A stretch of 7,741 bases of DNA from Allobaculum sp. (GTDB taxonomy: Bacteria > Bacillota_I > Bacilli_A > Erysipelotrichales > Erysipelotrichaceae), in NCBI GenBank assembly GCA_014803815.1, contig JAAVAY010000121.1:1-7741 (forward strand), in the 5' to 3' direction. Positions 1-7,741 of the stretch are shown here, one piece after another (positions within the stretch are counted from its first letter, which is position 1; each line of letters opens with the position of its first letter). The notes under the pieces are model-generated. The model ran no database searches. It worked only from the letters and a program-made list of their open reading frames with translations, and was not told the DNA's origin. A program made the position numbers and the translations under genes.

Positions 1-999
1 TAATAAAATCGTTTCCATAGCGTTTATGAGTTCTCCTAATTCGGTATATTTTTCGACAGTTGCGGATTCTTCTCCCACACTAGAGATTTGGTCAGGAGTG
101 ATCTTTTCAACTCGGGGGAATTCTACTAAACGCTCAGAACCTTCTAATGAATTTAACTCATCTATTCCTGATAGCTCTTTATTTTTTGTAAAATTATTAC
201 TAAGCACAGAATCGGACTTGAAAGTGCACTCTTCTAAAGGGAATTTTGTTGACTTTTCTTCTAGACTTTCGTCTTTAGAAAAATCTTGAGTAGGAATTTT
301 TTCTAGGAATTCCGATATCTCTTCTTCGCTTAAAGAAAGATCTTGGCTAGTCAACTCTTCTTTTTCTAAGGAATCTAGCCCATTAAGAGATTTTTCCCAC
401 TTCCTATTGGTTTGACGAACGATTAAGTTTTCCAATGAATTAAATTTTTGATGCTTAATCGACTCTTCTTGAGCTATCCCCTTTTTGGATGGGATGGAGG
501 AGAAAAGGTCTGGCTTAGAGGAATCAAAAAGCTTGTCTTTTGCTTCTTCCTCAAGCACTTTAATAGAGCTTACCTCTTGTTCTTGTGTACTCTTTTCTAG
601 AGCAGAGGCAGCTTGAATAATAACAATTTCTTTGAGTTCGTCTACTTTCTCATGAGTCTCTTTTGATTTTTCATCAAGTCCTTCTAAAATAGAATCTTTT
701 CCTTCCACTTCTTTTTCTGTTAATTTTTCTACTTCTTGATCTTGAAGCGACAAGAATTCCTCCTGCCTCTCTAAGCTTTCTTGAATATCTTTTTCTATCC
801 CTTCCTGAGTCAAAGAGTCTTGAAGCGAAAGAGTATTAAATTCCTCTAGTCTAGTCATCTCTTCTTTTAAACTAAATTCTTCTAATTCTTCCCTACCTAA
901 CAGAAAGGGATTTGGCGCTGTTGGCATTTTTTCAAGAATAAATTCTTCTTGAAAGCTAGACTTTTCTTGAGAAGCTAAAGCTGGAAAGGAAGAGGAACG
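1..999 (-). other. Acidic low-complexity tail of the giant protein
   Basis: From about residue 1347 to the window edge, the composition becomes dominated by Glu, Ser, Leu, Lys and Gln, with almost no Trp, Cys or Gly-rich motifs. EEF recurs at residues 1386, 1398 and 1426, twice followed within a few residues by LSLQD, which suggests internal duplication. The tail has no motif I can assign and is likely disordered or partly coiled-coil. The frame is open throughout, so it is translated with the helicase and is not a decayed neighbour. What follows the last visible residues (LGELINAMETILL) is outside the window and could be another domain. Confidence 0.7.
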
Positions 1000-3900
1000 G
1001 TTTATGATTTTGAGAAAAACCTCCGGTTTTCGAATCTTAATGGATTCTTTGTTGACGCGATGGACTTGAATATCGATCGCATTGTACTCCACTCGTACTT
1101 CATATCGGCGCTCAGGGACAGAATAGACATTCACATCCTGATGTGAGGTAAAGAACGTATTGTTGGCTAAGTAATTTTCATCTTTAAAGAGCATCTCTTC
1201 AAGCTCTTGAGCTGACCATTCTTGAAGCGCATTGGACTGATAGAGAAGTTGCTTAAGATGGGTCAATTGTTCAAAACTCTCAAGGTGTTCCGTTTCCTCA
1301 TCTGGCATCAACACGAACAAATAGTCCCGGGCCCGACTGATGGATACATTTAAAATGTTTCTATTGTTGACGTGAGTTTGCTCTGTACGATAGTTCTTAA
1401 AAGGGATATTCAAAACCGCAAGGATTAAGTCACACTCATCCCCTTGAAAGCCATGAACCGTTCCTACTTGCACTTTTACTTGACGAGGCCACTTTTCCGT
1501 TGTGATTAACTTACCAATCAAATCCATTTGAGCATGATAAGGTCCGATGATCCCAATTTTGAATGGCTCTTCTAGATTGGACTGGCTAATCTCTTTGGCT
1601 AAATGAGAAATAAACTCAAAGGCAAATAAGGCCGAATAAATTTGATAAGAGCTGTTTCTGAGTTGCCTGGATTGAAACAAACCATCATAAGACCGCACTG
1701 GAAATTTGATGAGATTTAAAGGTTGGATATCCAAACCATTTTCTAAATGAAGAGGTTTTTGACTGTTAGAAGATCGATAATTCTCTAATTTTCCTTCATA
1801 AGCAAAGTGACTAAAGATTTTTCCGATTTCGGGAATGCTGCGATATTGCGTATTGAGAGGCACGATTTCATAGGAATAGGGAGTCGTTTTTGGATTGGTA
1901 AACGAGTCTAAATGGACCATAGTATAAATACTTTCGTTTTTCCAAGTGGCTTCCTTGACAATAGGTTCAATTTGGAAGGGGTCCCCTGCCACAATAAATT
2001 TTTTGGGGGAAAGCTTGTAAAGAAGATAGACGAGCTCAGCTAATGAAATCATTGAGGCTTCATCGACTACGACATAGTCCCACTTCACCTCGTTTAAAAA
2101 AACTTCTTCTAGTGAGGAAGTATAAAATCGATCATAGGAAAGACGAGCGATCGTTGTGACGGTGACATTTTTCGAAACCTCTTGGATATCAAATGATTTC
2201 CCCTTAAAAATCGCACTATTCTCAATTTTCTCATCATCAGTAGAACCAAAACGAACTAACCAATCTTCATAAGAATTTTGATTTAAATCCGATTCCATGA
2301 TTTTGCGCGTCAAAACATCGGCCGCTTTATTAGTCGGAGCTAGCACTAAAACTTTACATTCCTGTTGTTGCATTAAAGGAGTAAGAATTTTTTGGGCTAA
2401 ATACGTTGTCTTTCCCGTACCTGGAGGCCCAAAAACAAATTGGATATTTTCACAGAGATTTGTTTGTAGATCGAAAGCCTCAGAATACTTAAAATTGAGC
2501 ATTTCCTGCAAAAGAGCTCTTGTAAGAAAGGTAACGGACTTACTTTCCATCTCTACGTATTTCACATCGTCTAAATCAATACCTTGAATATCTTGAATGT
2601 TTTGAAGTTTCACACGCAGACGATCTTCTTGAATTTCCGCACTTTCGATTGGAATGCTTTTGGTGGTTTCCTTTAGATGTAAGATAAGAGGAATCCTTGA
2701 AAAATCCTTAAGTCCTTTTGGAATCTTGGTTTTTGGTTGAGTGAGGATAAGTATCCGTTTCGTATTGGCTTCTCGCTCCACTCGATCAAAGCGTAACCAG
2801 AAAGATTCCGTCTTTTTTTTGCTCTTTTCTCTAGATTGGCGATTAGACCAAATTTCGGCCACTAGAAGTCGAGTAAACCAACCAAAAGAATATTTAGGAA
2901 ATTTTTGGGCTTCCTGAACCGCTTTTTCTTGAGAGCCAAAATAATCGATAAAATCATCCACATTTCCTAAATCTCTTTGGATTCCTGTGACAGAAGTAGA
3001 TGCTTTCGGCTCTACAGATTGAGAAGCGGAATCAAAGGCTTCTTGCTCAGAAAAAAGTGACTTTTCTTGATTAGAATTTTTGGCTTTTGTCCATGAAAAA
3101 TCGGTTGGAATGGAGGAATATGGATTGGAAATTTGATCGTAAGGAAGTCTTACGAAATCGTCCTTTTTTCTCTTTTCGCGAATCGTCTTTTCTTCCTGAA
3201 TCCAAGCTGTGGATTTATCTTCTTTCATCCAATCCATTTGGCTTTCTTCATATCCTAGACTGACAAACAGTCGGACAAGCGTATCTAAACTAAAAGATCC
3301 GTCTTTTACCATCGAAGGCCGAATGCCAAATTGGTAAAGAAGACAGGGAGTTCCCACTTTTTTCAATAAGTTTGGATGAATGGTTTCTCCATGACCTTGA
3401 GAGGAATATGGAAATAAAATTTGTTGATCATCCTCAAAAGCAGCTATCGCCTTTCCCTCTCGATTAAGAAAGATCGGCTTATTTTGCATCAATTTCCAAC
3501 GCAAAGGCGATTGGGCTAACCATAAATAAAAGGAGGAAAGCCAGTCAAAGGATTGTCTTTCAATAAAGCTAGGTGTAATTCCAGAAATGGAAGTATCATC
3601 ATGAATCGAATAATTGGAATTGGTTCTTCCCTTTAATAAGTCTTTCTCAGTAATGGTATCTTTTACCAATCCTTGAATAAAATTGGCCAATTCCGGATTT
3701 TTGGATTGAACACGATTCGCTCCTAAAGAAGGAAAAGCCCAAAAGGCTTGAGGATCATGAAGAAGAAAGGCTAACTTCTCATTGGAAAAGAGTTTAGGCA
3801 ATTGATAGGTATCTGCCCAATAAGCATTTTTAGCTAATCCATATTCTTTCTGCGTGGAAGGAAGAATAGGAAACCTTTGAAAAGTAGAGCGTATGGTGTT

Positions 3901-5037
3901 GAAAAAAGATCGTAAAGCCACCTTATCTTTTCCAGTCACAAGACTGAGTTCTTGAAGATCGTAGGGAACCACCGAAAGAATGGAATCTTCCAAGAGCGAT
4001 TGATTTTCTTTTTCTCCTAAAGGCTTGAAACACCGAATCGCATGAGCTGTCATCTCGGCTAAAAAGCTAATCAAGTTACTATTTATGGATTCATTCCAAC
4101 GAATCTTCTTTCGATTTTCACTGAGAAGAAAGGGAGCCTGAATTAAAAATTTTAAGCCTGTCTTTTCTTGAGTGGGGAAAAAACAAAAGGCAGGCTGGTT
4201 AGGTAACGGCCTTAGACTTCCATTAGATCCAGCAAGAAAGGCCACACTGCATGGATACGATTTCCCCTTTTCCTGGTAGGTTTGCTGAAAAACCCAAAAC
4301 ACATCTTTATTTTTTACTTGCCCATTCACAATATGAGTGAGACAAATTTTTTTGACTCCTAAAGAGATCTTTTTAAAGGAATATTGCTCAAGAATCTCTT
4401 TTTGATAAAGATGGCTTCCACTAGACCACTGACAAGAAATTTCCTTCAGATGAGAAAGAAACAAAAGGGGATAGGAAAGCGATTGAAGTTTGGTCAAAAT
4501 CTCGTGAGAGGGATTCAAATCAAAGTGAGGGATGCGATCAAGCAGAAAGGTCATTAATGTTTCTTCCATTTTGCGATCAGGATGATCCTTATCTAAGGGA
4601 TGAGGAACGATGTAGTTGTCGATTTGAAAGCAAAAATGTGGGTCATAAATTTGAGGCGCAGAGGTATAGGCAAAAATCGATCGAAAGCCAAATTTCCCCA
4701 TCGTGGTTTGCCCTTTTTGAAAATGTTCTGGTAAAGTGAGTCCATTGATTGAACCTTTCTGGGCATAGCCTTGACTCTCTTTAGTAACATCAGATATAGA
4801 AAAACCGTGTCCATTATGGGCAAACACCAAACGGATTGGCTTTAAAACGAAGCGGGCCGAAGTGGCTTGAGCTTCATCAGCATTTTTCAATAATTCGTAA
4901 ACAAAATGTGCGGGAGCTAAATCTTGCTCCAAGCTCTTTTGATTCAACCGGATTTGAGAAAGAAAACCAGGATTCTTCACTTTCTCTTCTCTATTTTTTG
5001 TTAAAGCATGAAACAATTGCTCTTGGTATTCATTCAC
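1..5037 (-). CDS. Giant GHKL ATPase-SF1 helicase fusion, C-terminus off window
   Basis: This frame is open for 1,679 codons from a GTG at 5035-5037 to the window edge, and its stop codon lies outside. The GTG is chosen because AAAGGAGG sits 7 bases upstream; going further upstream in frame, a TAA comes before any ATG, GTG or TTG. Residues about 30-145 form a GHKL ATPase: N-box ELLKNADEA (48-56), HNGHGF (74-79) and MGKFGFRSIF (113-122), resembling the sacsin/NOV-like branch. Residues about 150-850 are unassigned. A complete superfamily-1 Upf1/Dna2-like helicase follows: Walker A GPPGTGKTT (870-878), Walker B DEAS (992-995), GDPFQ (1018-1022), QYR (1064-1066), HGFQGDE (1195-1201) and SRAR (1234-1237). 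A conserved-looking segment near 1290-1330 and an acidic tail come last. Coupled ATP-dependent work on DNA or RNA is likely; an anti-phage role is only inferred. No transmembrane segment or signal peptide is evident. The domain calls are firm, the biological role unknown. Confidence 0.93.
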   Translation of the reverse strand, partial: MNEYQEQLFHALTKNREEKVKNPGFLSQIRLNQKSLEQDLAPAHFVYELLKNADEAQATSARFVLKPIRLVFAHNGHGFSISDVTKESQGYAQKGSINGLTLPEHFQKGQTTMGKFGFRSIFAYTSAPQIYDPHFCFQIDNYIVPHPLDKDHPDRKMEETLMTFLLDRIPHFDLNPSHEILTKLQSLSYPLLFLSHLKEISCQWSSGSHLYQKEILEQYSFKKISLGVKKICLTHIVNGQVKNKDVFWVFQQTYQEKGKSYPCSVAFLAGSNGSLRPLPNQPAFCFFPTQEKTGLKFLIQAPFLLSENRKKIRWNESINSNLISFLAEMTAHAIRCFKPLGEKENQSLLEDSILSVVPYDLQELSLVTGKDKVALRSFFNTIRSTFQRFPILPSTQKEYGLAKNAYWADTYQLPKLFSNEKLAFLLHDPQAFWAFPSLGANRVQSKNPELANFIQGLVKDTITEKDLLKGRTNSNYSIHDDTSISGITPSFIERQSFDWLSSFYLWLAQSPLRWKLMQNKPIFLNREGKAIAAFEDDQQILFPYSSQGHGETIHPNLLKKVGTPCLLYQFGIRPSMVKDGSFSLDTLVRLFVSLGYEESQMDWMKEDKSTAWIQEEKTIREKRKKDDFVRLPYDQISNPYSSIPTDFSWTKAKNSNQEKSLFSEQEAFDSASQSVEPKASTSVTGIQRDLGNVDDFIDYFGSQEKAVQEAQKFPKYSFGWFTRLLVAEIWSNRQSREKSKKKTESFWLRFDRVEREANTKRILILTQPKTKIPKGLKDFSRIPLILHLKETTKSIPIESAEIQEDRLRVKLQNIQDIQGIDLDDVKYVEMESKSVTFLTRALLQEMLNFKYSEAFDLQTNLCENIQFVFGPPGTGKTTYLAQKILTPLMQQQECKVLVLAPTNKAADVLTRKIMESDLNQNSYEDWLVRFGSTDDEKIENSAIFKGKSFDIQEVSKNVTVTTIARLSYDRFYTSSLEEVFLNEVKWDYVVVDEASMISLAELVYLLYKLSPKKFIVAGDPFQIEPIVKEATWKNESIYTMVHLDSFTNPKTTPYSYEIVPLNTQYRSIPEIGKIFSHFAYEGKLENYRSSNSQKPLHLENGLDIQPLNLIKFPVRSYDGLFQSRQLRNSSYQIYSALFAFEFISHLAKEISQSNLEEPFKIGIIGPYHAQMDLIGKLITTEKWPRQVKVQVGTVHGFQGDECDLILAVLNIPFKNYRTEQTHVNNRNILNVSISRARDYLFVLMPDEETEHLESFEQLTHLKQLLYQSNALQEWSAQELEEMLFKDENYLANNTFFTSHQDVNVYSVPERRYEVRVEYNAIDIQVHRVNKESIKIRKPEVFLKIINRSSSFPALASQEKSSFQEEFILEKMPTAPNPFLLGREELEEFSLKEEMTRLEEFNTLSLQDSLTQEGIEKDIQESLERQEEFLSLQDQEVEKLTEKEVEGKDSILEGLDEKSKETHEKVDELKEIVIIQAASALEKSTQEQEVSSIKVLEEEAKDKLFDSSKPDLFSSIPSKKGIAQEESIKHQKFNSLENLIVRQTNRKWEKSLNGLDSLEKEELTSQDLSLSEEEISEFLEKIPTQDFSKDESLEEKSTKFPLEECTFKSDSVLSNNFTKNKELSGIDELNSLEGSERLVEFPRVEKITPDQISSVGEESATVEKYTELGELINAMETILL
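679..846 (-). repeat. Degenerate 28-residue tandem repeat in the tail
   Basis: Two successive units begin EEFNTLSLQD (residue 1398) and EEFLSLQD (residue 1426), 28 codons apart, and both continue into Glu/Lys-rich sequence. At DNA level, the plus strand shows tcttgaagcga at both places, near 740 and 823. A shorter EEFSL occurs at residue 1386. The similarity is limited to the start of each unit, so this may be low-complexity drift rather than a true duplication. Confidence 0.4.
1288..2490 (-). other. Superfamily-1 helicase core of the giant protein
   Basis: Residues about 850-1250 of the 5037-1 frame. All characteristic SF1 motifs appear in the right order: I (GPPGTGKTT), Ia (VLAPTNKAADVL), II (VVVDEAS), III (VAGDPFQIEP), IV (NTQYRSIPEI), V (GTVHGFQGDECD) and VI (NVSISRARDYLFVL). 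The DEAS box, the QYRSIPEI motif IV and the HGFQGDE motif V place it with Upf1/Dna2/NAM7-like helicases (AAA_11/AAA_12 type) rather than UvrD/Rep. These enzymes move 5' to 3' on single-stranded nucleic acid, so that polarity is expected here. No catalytic residue appears to be lost. Confidence 0.92.
4603..4950 (-). other. GHKL (Hsp90-like) ATPase module of the giant protein
   Basis: Residues about 30-145 of the 5037-1 frame. The N-box glutamate and asparagine (E48, N52) and the following D54 are all present, as expected for Mg-ATP binding. The second motif reads HNGHGF instead of the DxGxG of gyrase, MutL or Hsp90; an H-N-G version is usual in sacsin- and NOV-type proteins. The lid-side glycine motif is MGKFGFRSIF, against the family-typical IGxFGxGFKSVF, so one glycine is replaced (GFG to KFGFR). 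The following residues include a SAPQIYDPHFCFQID stretch that fits the next strand of the fold. The module is probably active, although the lid substitution leaves some doubt. The boundaries are estimated by eye. Confidence 0.82.
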
Positions 5038-5044
5038 AGCGGGT

Positions 5045-5052
5045 CCTCCTTT
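5045..5052 (-). promoter_or_regulatory. Ribosome binding site of the giant helicase gene
   Basis: Read on the minus strand, AAAGGAGG lies 7 bases before the GTG at 5037. It is an almost perfect anti-16S match at the best spacing. It decides the non-ATG start, and it implies efficient translation initiation for a very long protein. Confidence 0.85.
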
Positions 5053-5200: not shown

Positions 5201-5243
5201 AAAAGACTAGCTCCAAATCAAGCATTATAGCTAGTCTTTTTTT
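5201..5243 (+). terminator. 12-bp terminator-like hairpin, better in plus orientation
   Basis: AAAAGACTAGCT at 5201-5212 pairs perfectly with AGCTAGTCTTTT at 5229-5240 around a 16-base loop. On the plus strand the second arm runs into seven Ts, a good U-tract. On the minus strand only four Us and then AAUAUUU follow, so it would be a weaker second terminator behind the permease. No plus-strand gene ends here, so its likely use is backup termination of the permease transcript or blocking of antisense transcription into that gene. Confidence 0.6.
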
Positions 5244-5256
5244 GGTCAATATATGG

Positions 5257-5301
5257 AAAAAAGAAAAAAGGGCTTGAACGATTCGATCGTTACAAACCCT
5301 T
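5257..5301 (-). terminator. Intrinsic terminator of the permease gene
   Basis: Starting 12 bases after the permease stop, the minus strand forms a long hairpin. The core AACGAT/ATCGTT surrounds a three-base loop, then TTG pairs with CAA past one bulged base, then AAGGG pairs with CCCTT past one C-A mismatch. It is followed by CUUUUUUCUUUUUU. This should end the permease transcript efficiently and separate it from the helicase gene. Confidence 0.85.
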
Positions 5302-5313
5302 GAGAATCAAAAA

Positions 5314-6924
5314 TTATGCTCCTTTGCGATCTTGAGCTTTGCGGATTTCTGGCATAACCAGACCTAAAGCGATAAGAACAAATGGCATTAAAGCATTTAA
5401 GATAGTACGTGTCATGTCACCGTCAACCCATACACCGAGTAAGCAGCAAGCCGCGGTAACGAAGAAGCACCATCCACCAACACACATGGCAAGATTGGAG
5501 TTCTTAATGAATACATAATCGCTGTGGAATTTGTTTCCCGCTTTGCGAAGCATGATGTAAGCAAAGAATACCCACAAGTAACGCATTGGCATACATACAG
5601 AATTGAGCTTAGTAAGCCAAGCGATGATGTCGGAAGCACCAGTACCGAGAAGTTGAATAGCAATAATAGCTCCAGAAAGAATACCAACCAAGATAATACC
5701 GTTGATATAGGCTCCTTTGGAGTTTTGTTTGAGAAGTCCTTTTGGAACGAATTGACGAGCGGATTCGTCGTCAAGAAGCATACGAAGAGGAGCATCGATG
5801 GAAAGAACGAGAGTGGAAAATTGACCAATCGCGTTGCAAGCTCCATAAACTACTACAAAGAAACTACCTAGTCCCCAATATTCTCCAAGTTTTTCAAAAG
5901 CTAAATAAGCACCGTTAGCAATAAAGCTTCCAGAAGTAACGGCTGCTCCTTCATTTATATACGTTTGCAAAACCACTGGGTCAATGGGTCCTTGTTTTGC
6001 CAACTCCAATAAGTCTGCCGCATCCTGGCCCATCGCAAAGACTTGCGCTGTCGCTCCTTGAGCAACACTCGCACCTGCATATTCGCCGGCTTCTGCAAAA
6101 GTAAACGTCACGGGTTGGAAAGCAAGTCCCATAGCAATTGTTCCCAAAATCGCGCAGATCATAACCATAATGGCCAAAGCGATCATACCTTTTGGGAAAT
6201 CCTTACCAGGATTTGCCACTTTATTTACATAAGGAGAAATCTTTTCGCAACCACCTACCGCAAAAACTAAGATAGATAGTGAAGTAAAGTAATTCGCATT
6301 AAATTGAGGAATCAAGTTTTCCCAGCTGAAGTCGAGATTAGCGAAGACATGATTTTGTCTTAATACCATTGCCGCAAAGATCATCATGACAATGTAGAGC
6401 AAAGACATGACAAACATACTTGATCCAGCAATAGAGGTTAAGGCTTTTAAAGGAGAAAGACCTTGAGAAGCCACCCACAAAAAGAATACAAATACGACCC
6501 CTGTCGCAAGCTGTACTTGCCATGATGGTAAGGAATCGTACCAAGCGTTTGAAAGGCACATCCAAGCTAATGCTTTCAAACCGCCACTTCCTTTTGATGC
6601 AATATATGGAATGTGTACTACCCAATAGGTGTAGCCAGCGTAATAGGCTAGCTTTGGATTCGTGGTTTCAAGTACCCAGCTTGTTACACCGCCGCCAGCG
6701 GTTTTGAAAGCTGAACCAAGCTCACCAACCATAAGAGCGTAGGGCACAAAATATAACGCGAACATCAGGATCCATGAGAAGATGACCTGTGTTCCGTTAA
6801 AGTAGGCAAAGCCGTTTACGACGTTTCCAAAACCCCATACAGTCGAAAACGCCATGAATGCTAGAGTTATCCACGAGATCTTTTTCTGATCCGCTGCTCC
6901 ACTAGCATTACCAGGTTTAGCCAT
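5314..6924 (-). CDS. APC-superfamily amino-acid permease
   Basis: A complete 536-residue integral membrane protein with about 12 hydrophobic segments, expected to carry amino acids or related amines across the cytoplasmic membrane. TM1 (about 17-40) holds WGFGNVVNG at 30-38, matching the unwound substrate-binding stretch of the LeuT/APC fold. TM6 (about 214-232) holds FAVGGCEKISPY with E227, the other unwound helix of this fold. The GELGSAFKTAGGG motif after TM2 is typical of the AA_permease_2 group, close to the YjeM-like and Gram-positive GABA/glutamate-antiporter-like proteins. A long, Ala/Gly-rich segment (about 270-335) separates TM7 and TM8. The ATG start is supported by AAAGGAG 10 bases upstream. 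It has its own promoter candidate and terminator. The substrate cannot be read from the sequence. Family confidence is high, with no frameshift or missing segment. Confidence 0.93.
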   Translation of the reverse strand: MAKPGNASGAADQKKISWITLAFMAFSTVWGFGNVVNGFAYFNGTQVIFSWILMFALYFVPYALMVGELGSAFKTAGGGVTSWVLETTNPKLAYYAGYTYWVVHIPYIASKGSGGLKALAWMCLSNAWYDSLPSWQVQLATGVVFVFFLWVASQGLSPLKALTSIAGSSMFVMSLLYIVMMIFAAMVLRQNHVFANLDFSWENLIPQFNANYFTSLSILVFAVGGCEKISPYVNKVANPGKDFPKGMIALAIMVMICAILGTIAMGLAFQPVTFTFAEAGEYAGASVAQGATAQVFAMGQDAADLLELAKQGPIDPVVLQTYINEGAAVTSGSFIANGAYLAFEKLGEYWGLGSFFVVVYGACNAIGQFSTLVLSIDAPLRMLLDDESARQFVPKGLLKQNSKGAYINGIILVGILSGAIIAIQLLGTGASDIIAWLTKLNSVCMPMRYLWVFFAYIMLRKAGNKFHSDYVFIKNSNLAMCVGGWCFFVTAACCLLGVWVDGDMTRTILNALMPFVLIALGLVMPEIRKAQDRKGA

Positions 6925-7197: not shown

Positions 7198-7741
7198 TTA
7201 TTCAACGATTTCAGTAACGTTACCAGCACCTACAGTATGTCCACCTTCACGGATAGAGAAAGTAGTACCATTTTCGATAGCGATAGGAGCGATAAGTTCA
7301 ACGTTCATTTCAACGTTATCGCCAGGCATAACCATTTCAACGCCATCTGGTAAAGTGATAACACCTGTTACGTCAGTTGTACGGAAGTAGAACTGAGGAC
7401 GATAGTTGGAAACGAATGGTGTATGACGTCCACCTTCTTCTTTGCTCAATACGTAAACTTGAGCTTTGAATTTTGTATGTGGATGAACAGAACCAGGTTT
7501 TGCAAGAACTTGTCCACGTTGTACTTGGTCACGAGCAACACCACGGAGCAATGCACCAATGTTGTCACCAGCTTGAGCTTCATCAAGTTGTTTATGGAAC
7601 ATTTCAAGACCAGTTAATACAGTTGTACGAGTTGGTTTGATACCAACGATTTCAACGTTGTCAGCCAAGTGAGCCGTACCACGTTCAACACGTCCAGTCG
7701 CAACGGTACCACGACCAGAAATAGTCATAACGTCTTCGACA
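7198..7741 (-). CDS. tuf: Elongation factor Tu, C-terminal part (domains II-III)
   Basis: The last 180 codons of EF-Tu and its TAA stop; the GTPase domain lies beyond the right edge, so this is truncation by the window and not a pseudogene. EF-Tu carries aminoacyl-tRNA to the ribosome as a GTP complex in the cytoplasm. Clear family signatures are [11 protein letters not shown] at the domain II start, [56 protein letters not shown] and the ending [15 protein letters not shown]. The sequence is closest in feel to Bacillota EF-Tu. A strong terminator follows. The preceding gene, usually fusA and the str operon or a translation gene, is not visible. Confidence 0.98.

Follow-up and report, generated by a model that had tools for sequence, protein, structure and literature searches.

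What does a bacterial protein do that carries a GHKL-type ATPase module and a superfamily 1 (SF1) helicase in one polypeptide? The question is raised by a gene in a 7,741-nucleotide stretch of an Allobaculum sp. genome (assembly GCA_014803815.1, contig JAAVAY010000121.1), called the window below, in which a frame opens with a GTG at 5037 and reaches position 1 with no stop codon, giving 1,679 visible residues. Its product (P0001) belongs to a large unnamed family and is no unique fusion. The reading we favor, with moderate confidence, is that the family is a horizontally mobile anti-phage (anti-mobile-DNA) protein in which a sacsin-type GHKL module and its transducer are joined to a UPF1-like SF1 helicase.

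An earlier reading made from the letters of the window (the sequence-only reading) had described an uninterrupted chain with both a GHKL module and an SF1 helicase, and domains, fold and motifs all confirm this. The N-terminal part has the Bergerat fold of the GHKL superfamily, with sacsin as its best match and other GHKL families close together behind; a MORC-type kinship is not supported, the best match being sacsin and not MORC. E48 and N52 of the N box are invariant in a 68-row alignment. A transducer with a basic residue follows – alignments with MutL, GyrB and topoisomerase VI extend to about residue 335–345, and R309 is invariant in the same 68 rows. R309 may be a functional residue at a position like that of Hsp90 Arg380, a putative catalytic-loop residue (PMC9880540). 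The helicase part has motifs I, II, III and V/VI and matches both the AAA_11 and AAA_12 profiles, as anticipated for a UPF1/SEN1-like enzyme; the closest solved helicase structures are SEN1, UPF1 and NAM7. By loose patterns, the helicase motifs occur in 118–120 of the 120 listed proteins and in 17–20 of 20 locus proteins, and those examined in the window copy are intact.

Of 7,995 candidates from a database search, 2,300 proteins scored at E ≤ 1e-3, and some of these may not be full-length family members. Precomputed SACS, AAA_11 and AAA_12 matches were read from the table for 117 of the best 120 of these 2,300 (window protein included), and 115 of the 117 are 1,600–1,800 residues long. Relatives are annotated only as 'AAA domain-containing protein', in line with the statement in the sequence-only reading that such architectures exist as uncharacterized proteins. 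The Pfam, NCBIfam and PADLOC libraries used here gave no name for the fusion, and no publication on it was listed in searches of an open-access literature collection that lacks most subscription papers and bioRxiv. The available parts of PMC3710099 and PMC12839542 hold nothing on it; those of the DefensePredictor paper (PMC13092281) name an HATPase domain in a figure legend, from which inclusion of the family could not be told.

An alignment-based genome scan gave at least 20 loci, 14 of the family (L001–L014, some cut by contig ends) and six of helicase relatives only. The family loci are from Bacillota, Bacteroidota, Desulfovibrio and a Thiotrichaceae bacterium. With the window protein alone as query the genome scan returned no matches, its peptide patterns probably being lineage-specific. 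Clear members were present in 2 of 65 matching plasmid records (among the best 20 of the 65), covering 69% and 54% of the query. Genome surveys found members in 2 of 200, 3 of 291, 5 of 348 and 4 of 345 genomes, counts that include the seed genome each time and, among the five, one 232-residue fragment. Occurrence in few surveyed genomes, in several phyla and on plasmids points to an accessory, mobile distribution. A universal housekeeping gene was rejected on this patchy occupancy of about 1%, and a phage-borne gene was rejected as well – 50,697 phage records gave one partial match (17% of the query), and viral contigs gave at least 24 loci with helicase stretches only. Two giant variants (L009:4085-12022, 2,645 residues; L071:8226-15149, 2,307 residues) begin with the GHKL part, end with the helicase and have long added regions in between.

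The genes around the relatives were compared with control regions. From each flank of 23 loci, the two closest genes with 150 codons or more were taken (fewer where a contig ended or an overlapping frame was dropped), which made a neighbor set of 72 proteins. At a threshold of E ≤ 1e-30, these matched 59 PADLOC families, compared with four for the 72 proteins of 12 control regions (four proteins at the most, as each family was matched by a single one); the ratio is approximate because the two sets differ in length and one protein can match many families. The control regions came from seven of the genomes that also hold the loci, at positions chosen arbitrarily; two of the regions (G003:C6 and G005:C11) are on a contig with a family gene, at least 30 kb away. 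The PADLOC tally lists 25 of the 59 families without naming members; the count by locus given below rests on singly scanned proteins and PDC-S68 matches, not on every neighbor. Left out of the 23 loci were L006 and L053 (short contigs), L049 (same place as L064), L068 and L072 (fragments), L015–L020 (other helicases), and L047, L048, L050–L052 and L054–L062 (short copies or pieces of longer loci). L008, L011 and L012, which are among the 23, start close to or at the end of a contig, where a full upstream partner could not show.

A defense-type gene was found nearby in 14 of the 23 loci. These genes include PDC-S68, described below, in seven loci; type III restriction genes in L045, L046 and L069, the last with a type III methylase; Qat A, C and D together with AbiEi in L071, where the Qat genes adjoin the giant variant; a type I restriction enzyme in L066; DruE in L009, 23 bases ahead of the giant variant of 2,645 residues; HmaB/DrmD-like proteins in L067; a PrimPol protein in L063; DrmD pieces in L003; and a weakly matched SIR2 protein in L070 (E=9e-14). 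The protein encoded next to the SIR2 one had been taken by eye for McrB, and matched only other models. Two plasmids share the gene order methylase, res-type helicase, family gene, with a PADLOC type III methylase match in both. Patchy distribution and enrichment of defense genes, which the sequence-only reading had named as checks on its proposal of a possible defense role, are both seen for the relatives, and the proposal gains support; the window's own visible neighbors include no such gene. On the Hymenobacter plasmid, L046:17449-21084 holds a DinG-like helicase, which matches PADLOC type IV CRISPR-associated DinG models, and a primase/polymerase gene, 3' of the family gene.

One neighbor is PDC-S68, a PADLOC candidate system consisting of a separate RecD-like helicase protein – a partner of the family, not a full-length homolog. 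It adjoins the family gene in six of the 23 loci (L004, L007, L013, L014, L063 and L066), and in L046 lies upstream in the same cluster, not adjacent. In five of the six adjacent cases it is upstream on the same strand, at a gap of 33 bases in L007 and 14 bases in L063, and with frames overlapping by 4 bases in L013 and L014; the overlap in L066 is 20 as called, and the partner gene there is broken. The two genes of L004 are convergent, with 128 bases between them. With these six loci, and others beside restriction-modification genes, the protein is often not the stand-alone one first proposed. The 348-genome survey found PDC-S68 in four genomes and the family in five, with both in one (G499), adjacent; the 291-genome survey found them in one and three genomes, with both only in the seed genome. 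These paired surveys reject PDC-S68 as an obligate partner: the pairing is frequent but optional.

Several single loci bear description. Directly downstream of the PDC-S68/GHKL-helicase pair in L063 is a PrimPol protein (L063:2948-5941) with a helicase-like later part and a weak PbeA match, a candidate third component. In L092:13131-17193, an OLD-like (by eye) and a possibly UvrD-like protein (42 bits), a pair reminiscent of Gabija, are encoded near a PDC-S68 gene that has no family member beside it. The PDC-S68 profiles also match the control genome of Methanocaldococcus jannaschii. At L007:10001-14365 the family gene is in three open reading frames (ORFs) behind an intact PDC-S68 gene, the result of assembly error or real decay. 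A family remnant at L068:9606-10271, an ORF of 221 residues (232 in the genome search) beside genes judged transposase-like by eye, is perhaps a loss in progress.

Parts of the protein resemble known systems. The front, GHKL plus the middle part, matches the PADLOC models of Tiamat TmtA (42–423 of 1302 for the window protein, E=4e-27; 38–938 of 1302 for the relative in L045, E=2e-47), but the best-matched stretch does not reach the helicase and leaves out the end of the TmtA model. The helicase half matches the helicase end of Mokosh MkoA (MkoA/MkoC models, E=1e-36), but this stretch, 788–1072 of 1112, is helicase only, while the window protein has a GHKL part. Mokosh has a phospholipase-D feature; Pfam lists no phospholipase-D family in the window protein. 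Membership in Tiamat or Mokosh was rejected, as the matches are only partial. MORC/paraMORC proteins likewise have a GHKL and S5 module linked to helicases, methylases and a type III restriction context, and ATP-driven DNA looping beside SF2 helicases has been proposed for them in restriction operons (PMC2292703); their helicase is SF2 and a separate neighboring gene, whereas that of the present family is SF1 and fused, and the family's best fold match lies elsewhere. The Shedu type I-D protein VcSduA, a tested defense system, is a single chain in which a GHKL module precedes a nucleic-acid effector, and its authors hypothesize that the GHKL module controls the effector, which is a nuclease and not, as here, a helicase (PMC12137116). 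CoCoNuT types II/III include a UPF1-like SF1 helicase, CnuH, in a predicted defense operon, but these operons include a gene for an McrB-type GTPase, and a text search for 'GHKL' found nothing in the available part of the paper (PMC11090510).

By analogy with VcSduA and MORC, ATP binding in canonical members would most likely close the GHKL dimer and so gate the fused SF1 motor. ATP-dependent closure as a dimer clamp is established for GHKL modules with a transducer in MutL, GyrB and Hsp90. The gated helicase would then load on invading or damaged nucleic acid and translocate. Pfam lists no effector nuclease domain in P0001, P0003, P0113 or the L071 protein, and cutting would therefore probably be supplied in trans by partner or neighboring systems, restriction enzymes for example.

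A number of observations weigh against an anti-phage role. No experiment on any family member was found. Nine of the 23 loci (L001, L002, L005, L008, L010, L011, L012, L064 and L065) have no clear defense gene among the singly scanned nearest genes; L065 gave a single weak match (E=9e-16), and a type II cytosine methylase lies at a distance of 6.7 kb in L001. The neighbor and control sets are equal in protein number and unequal in length (40,985 and 26,480 residues). PDC-S68 occurs without the family in three of the four genomes that carry it in the 348-genome survey, and is not matched at threshold in six of the eight family genomes of the two paired surveys. The window gene itself adjoins a permease and EF-Tu, with no defense neighbor on the visible side. 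The nine loci and the window, together with the kinship of the motor to SEN1, UPF1 and NAM7, would also suit an accessory DNA or RNA repair or RNA-quality factor of UPF1/SEN1 type with a chaperone-like dimerizer, carried on islands because these gather accessory genes and not itself used in defense. We regard this as rather unlikely, given an occupancy of about 1% in several phyla, copies on plasmids and repeated tight coupling with a defense candidate (PDC-S68) and restriction genes. Less likely again is a subunit of a restriction-modification system, in which a GHKL-helicase would loop or remodel DNA between recognition and cleavage sites in the manner of MORC/paraMORC. The shared gene order and type III methylase matches of the two plasmids, the type I enzyme in L066, the methylase in L069 and the looping model of PMC2292703 are in its favor; restriction genes were recognized near only four of the 23 loci (L045, L046, L066 and L069), however, and are of two types, as would be expected of a defense island rather than of an obligate subunit.

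The window copy departs from its relatives in the GHKL part. The G2 box is G-x-F-G-x-G in 117 of the 120 proteins and is also present in 19 of 20 locus proteins; in P0001, P0003 and P0004 it is GKFGFRS, two residues short, and a complete box (GxxGxG) is absent from the window copy. Hsp90 glycines 118, 121 and 123 are among the invariant ATP-binding residues in the sacsin study (PMC9880540). Around Arg309, the SREGI motif has become NRKKI or NRKMI in the same three proteins. Curated GHKL profiles are not passed: NCBIfam gives 37 of 50 bits, and the Pfam search does not list SACS for the window copy (17 bits for P0003 and 58 for P0113, with a cut-off of 32.8). The GHKL module placed here by the sequence-only reading was thus recovered as a fold and not by profile; its kinship rests on fold and on canonical relatives, and no active ATPase is claimed for this copy. 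The ATPase may be weakened or lost in the window lineage. The clamp gating proposed earlier, most likely in canonical members, is doubtful here because the G2 box is truncated, and the GHKL part of the window copy is probably a structural or nucleotide-sensing dimerizer, not a working ATPase.

The lineage is also distinct beyond the helicase. P0003, the closest relative among the best 120 proteins (84% identity), has 1,890 residues and P0004 has 1,857; roughly 200 residues of the window protein should therefore lie outside the window. The stretch 3' of the post-helicase motif is 557 and 502 residues long in these two full-length proteins, against a median of 126 (range 2–158) in other homologs (102 of the 117, where the motif was found); 449 and 394 of the residues lie between this motif and a C-terminal block common to both. 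The three proteins have a long stem of 1.88 changes per column and a position next to the P0005–P0113 rows. The tree, made by a quick method, has long branches (L013, L071, L009, L046, L070 and L004), and the residue composition of P0001 and P0004 is unusual; it was used only for this grouping, and a label test on PDC-S68 neighbors in it was not used. The long stem, the G2 box deletion, the altered SREGI motif and the acidic, low-complexity insert might describe a decaying remnant, yet we consider this very improbable: the frame is open for 1,679 codons, the examined helicase motifs are intact, the changes are common to three related proteins, and both full-length ones keep the C-terminal block. 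The last two points indicate that the lineage form persists.

The features of the window are collected in Table 1. The permease and EF-Tu genes are on the same strand as the GHKL-SF1 helicase gene, and the closest of the few permease relatives with a taxon name, among 120 listed, are from Erysipelotrichaceae (74% identity), which makes this family the probable source of the window. Two hairpins lie 3' of the permease gene, so the GHKL-SF1 helicase gene probably starts a transcript of its own; the 12-bp inverted repeat is a candidate second terminator or operator. Neither hairpin was listed by a simple terminator scan of the window, a promoter scan gave two weak sites (1.2 expected by chance), and Rfam had no match in the window.

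Table 1. Features of the window and of the GHKL-SF1 helicase gene
Feature	Position	Strand	Remarks
GHKL-SF1 helicase gene	1..5037	-	GTG start; open at the window's low end
Acidic Glu-rich lineage insert, residues 1331-1679 seen	1..1047	-	23% Asp+Glu
Conserved block directly 3' of helicase, residues 1280-1326	1060..1200	-	
UPF1/SEN1-like SF1 helicase, residues 843-1260	1258..2511	-	
Walker B/motif II DEAS, residues 992-995	2053..2064	-	
Walker A GPPGTGKT, residues 870-877	2407..2430	-	includes K876
Middle region, residues 346-600	3238..4002	-	structure model mostly confident
Transducer/S5-like domain, residues 215-345	4003..4395	-	includes Arg309; MutL, GyrB, topoisomerase VI alignments
GHKL fold (sacsin SR1/Hsp90 N-domain), residues 22-214	4396..4974	-	
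G2 box GKFG--FRSI, residues 114-121	4675..4698	-	two residues shorter than in 117/120 proteins
N box, residues 44-59	4861..4908	-	catalytic-type Glu48
Shine-Dalgarno AGGAGG	5045..5050	-	7 bases 5' of GTG; by-eye reading
Second hairpin, on perfect 12-bp inverted repeat AAAAGACTAGCT/AGCTAGTCTTTT	5201..5240	.	between permease and GHKL-SF1 helicase genes
Terminator-like hairpin, then T run	5268..5301	-	3' of permease gene; z -4.6
APC amino-acid permease	5314..6924	-	upstream neighbor
EF-Tu, C-terminal part	7198..7740	-	

A more specific proposal, which we put forward tentatively and think more doubtful than the anti-phage reading itself, is that PDC-S68 and the GHKL-SF1 protein form an undescribed two-helicase defense system, in which an Hsp90/sacsin-type clamp would license a UPF1-like motor, while in the Erysipelotrichaceae lineage of the window the clamp would be a pseudo-ATPase and the helicase alone would work. 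Bacterial immunity makes repeated use of GHKL ATPases and of UPF1-like helicases, and their fusion is without a name in the libraries searched. Its repeated coupling to PDC-S68 provides a concrete two-gene hypothesis that is testable by plaque assay, and the natural lineage in which the G2 box is truncated allows ATPase-competent and ATPase-impaired clamps to be compared within one family.

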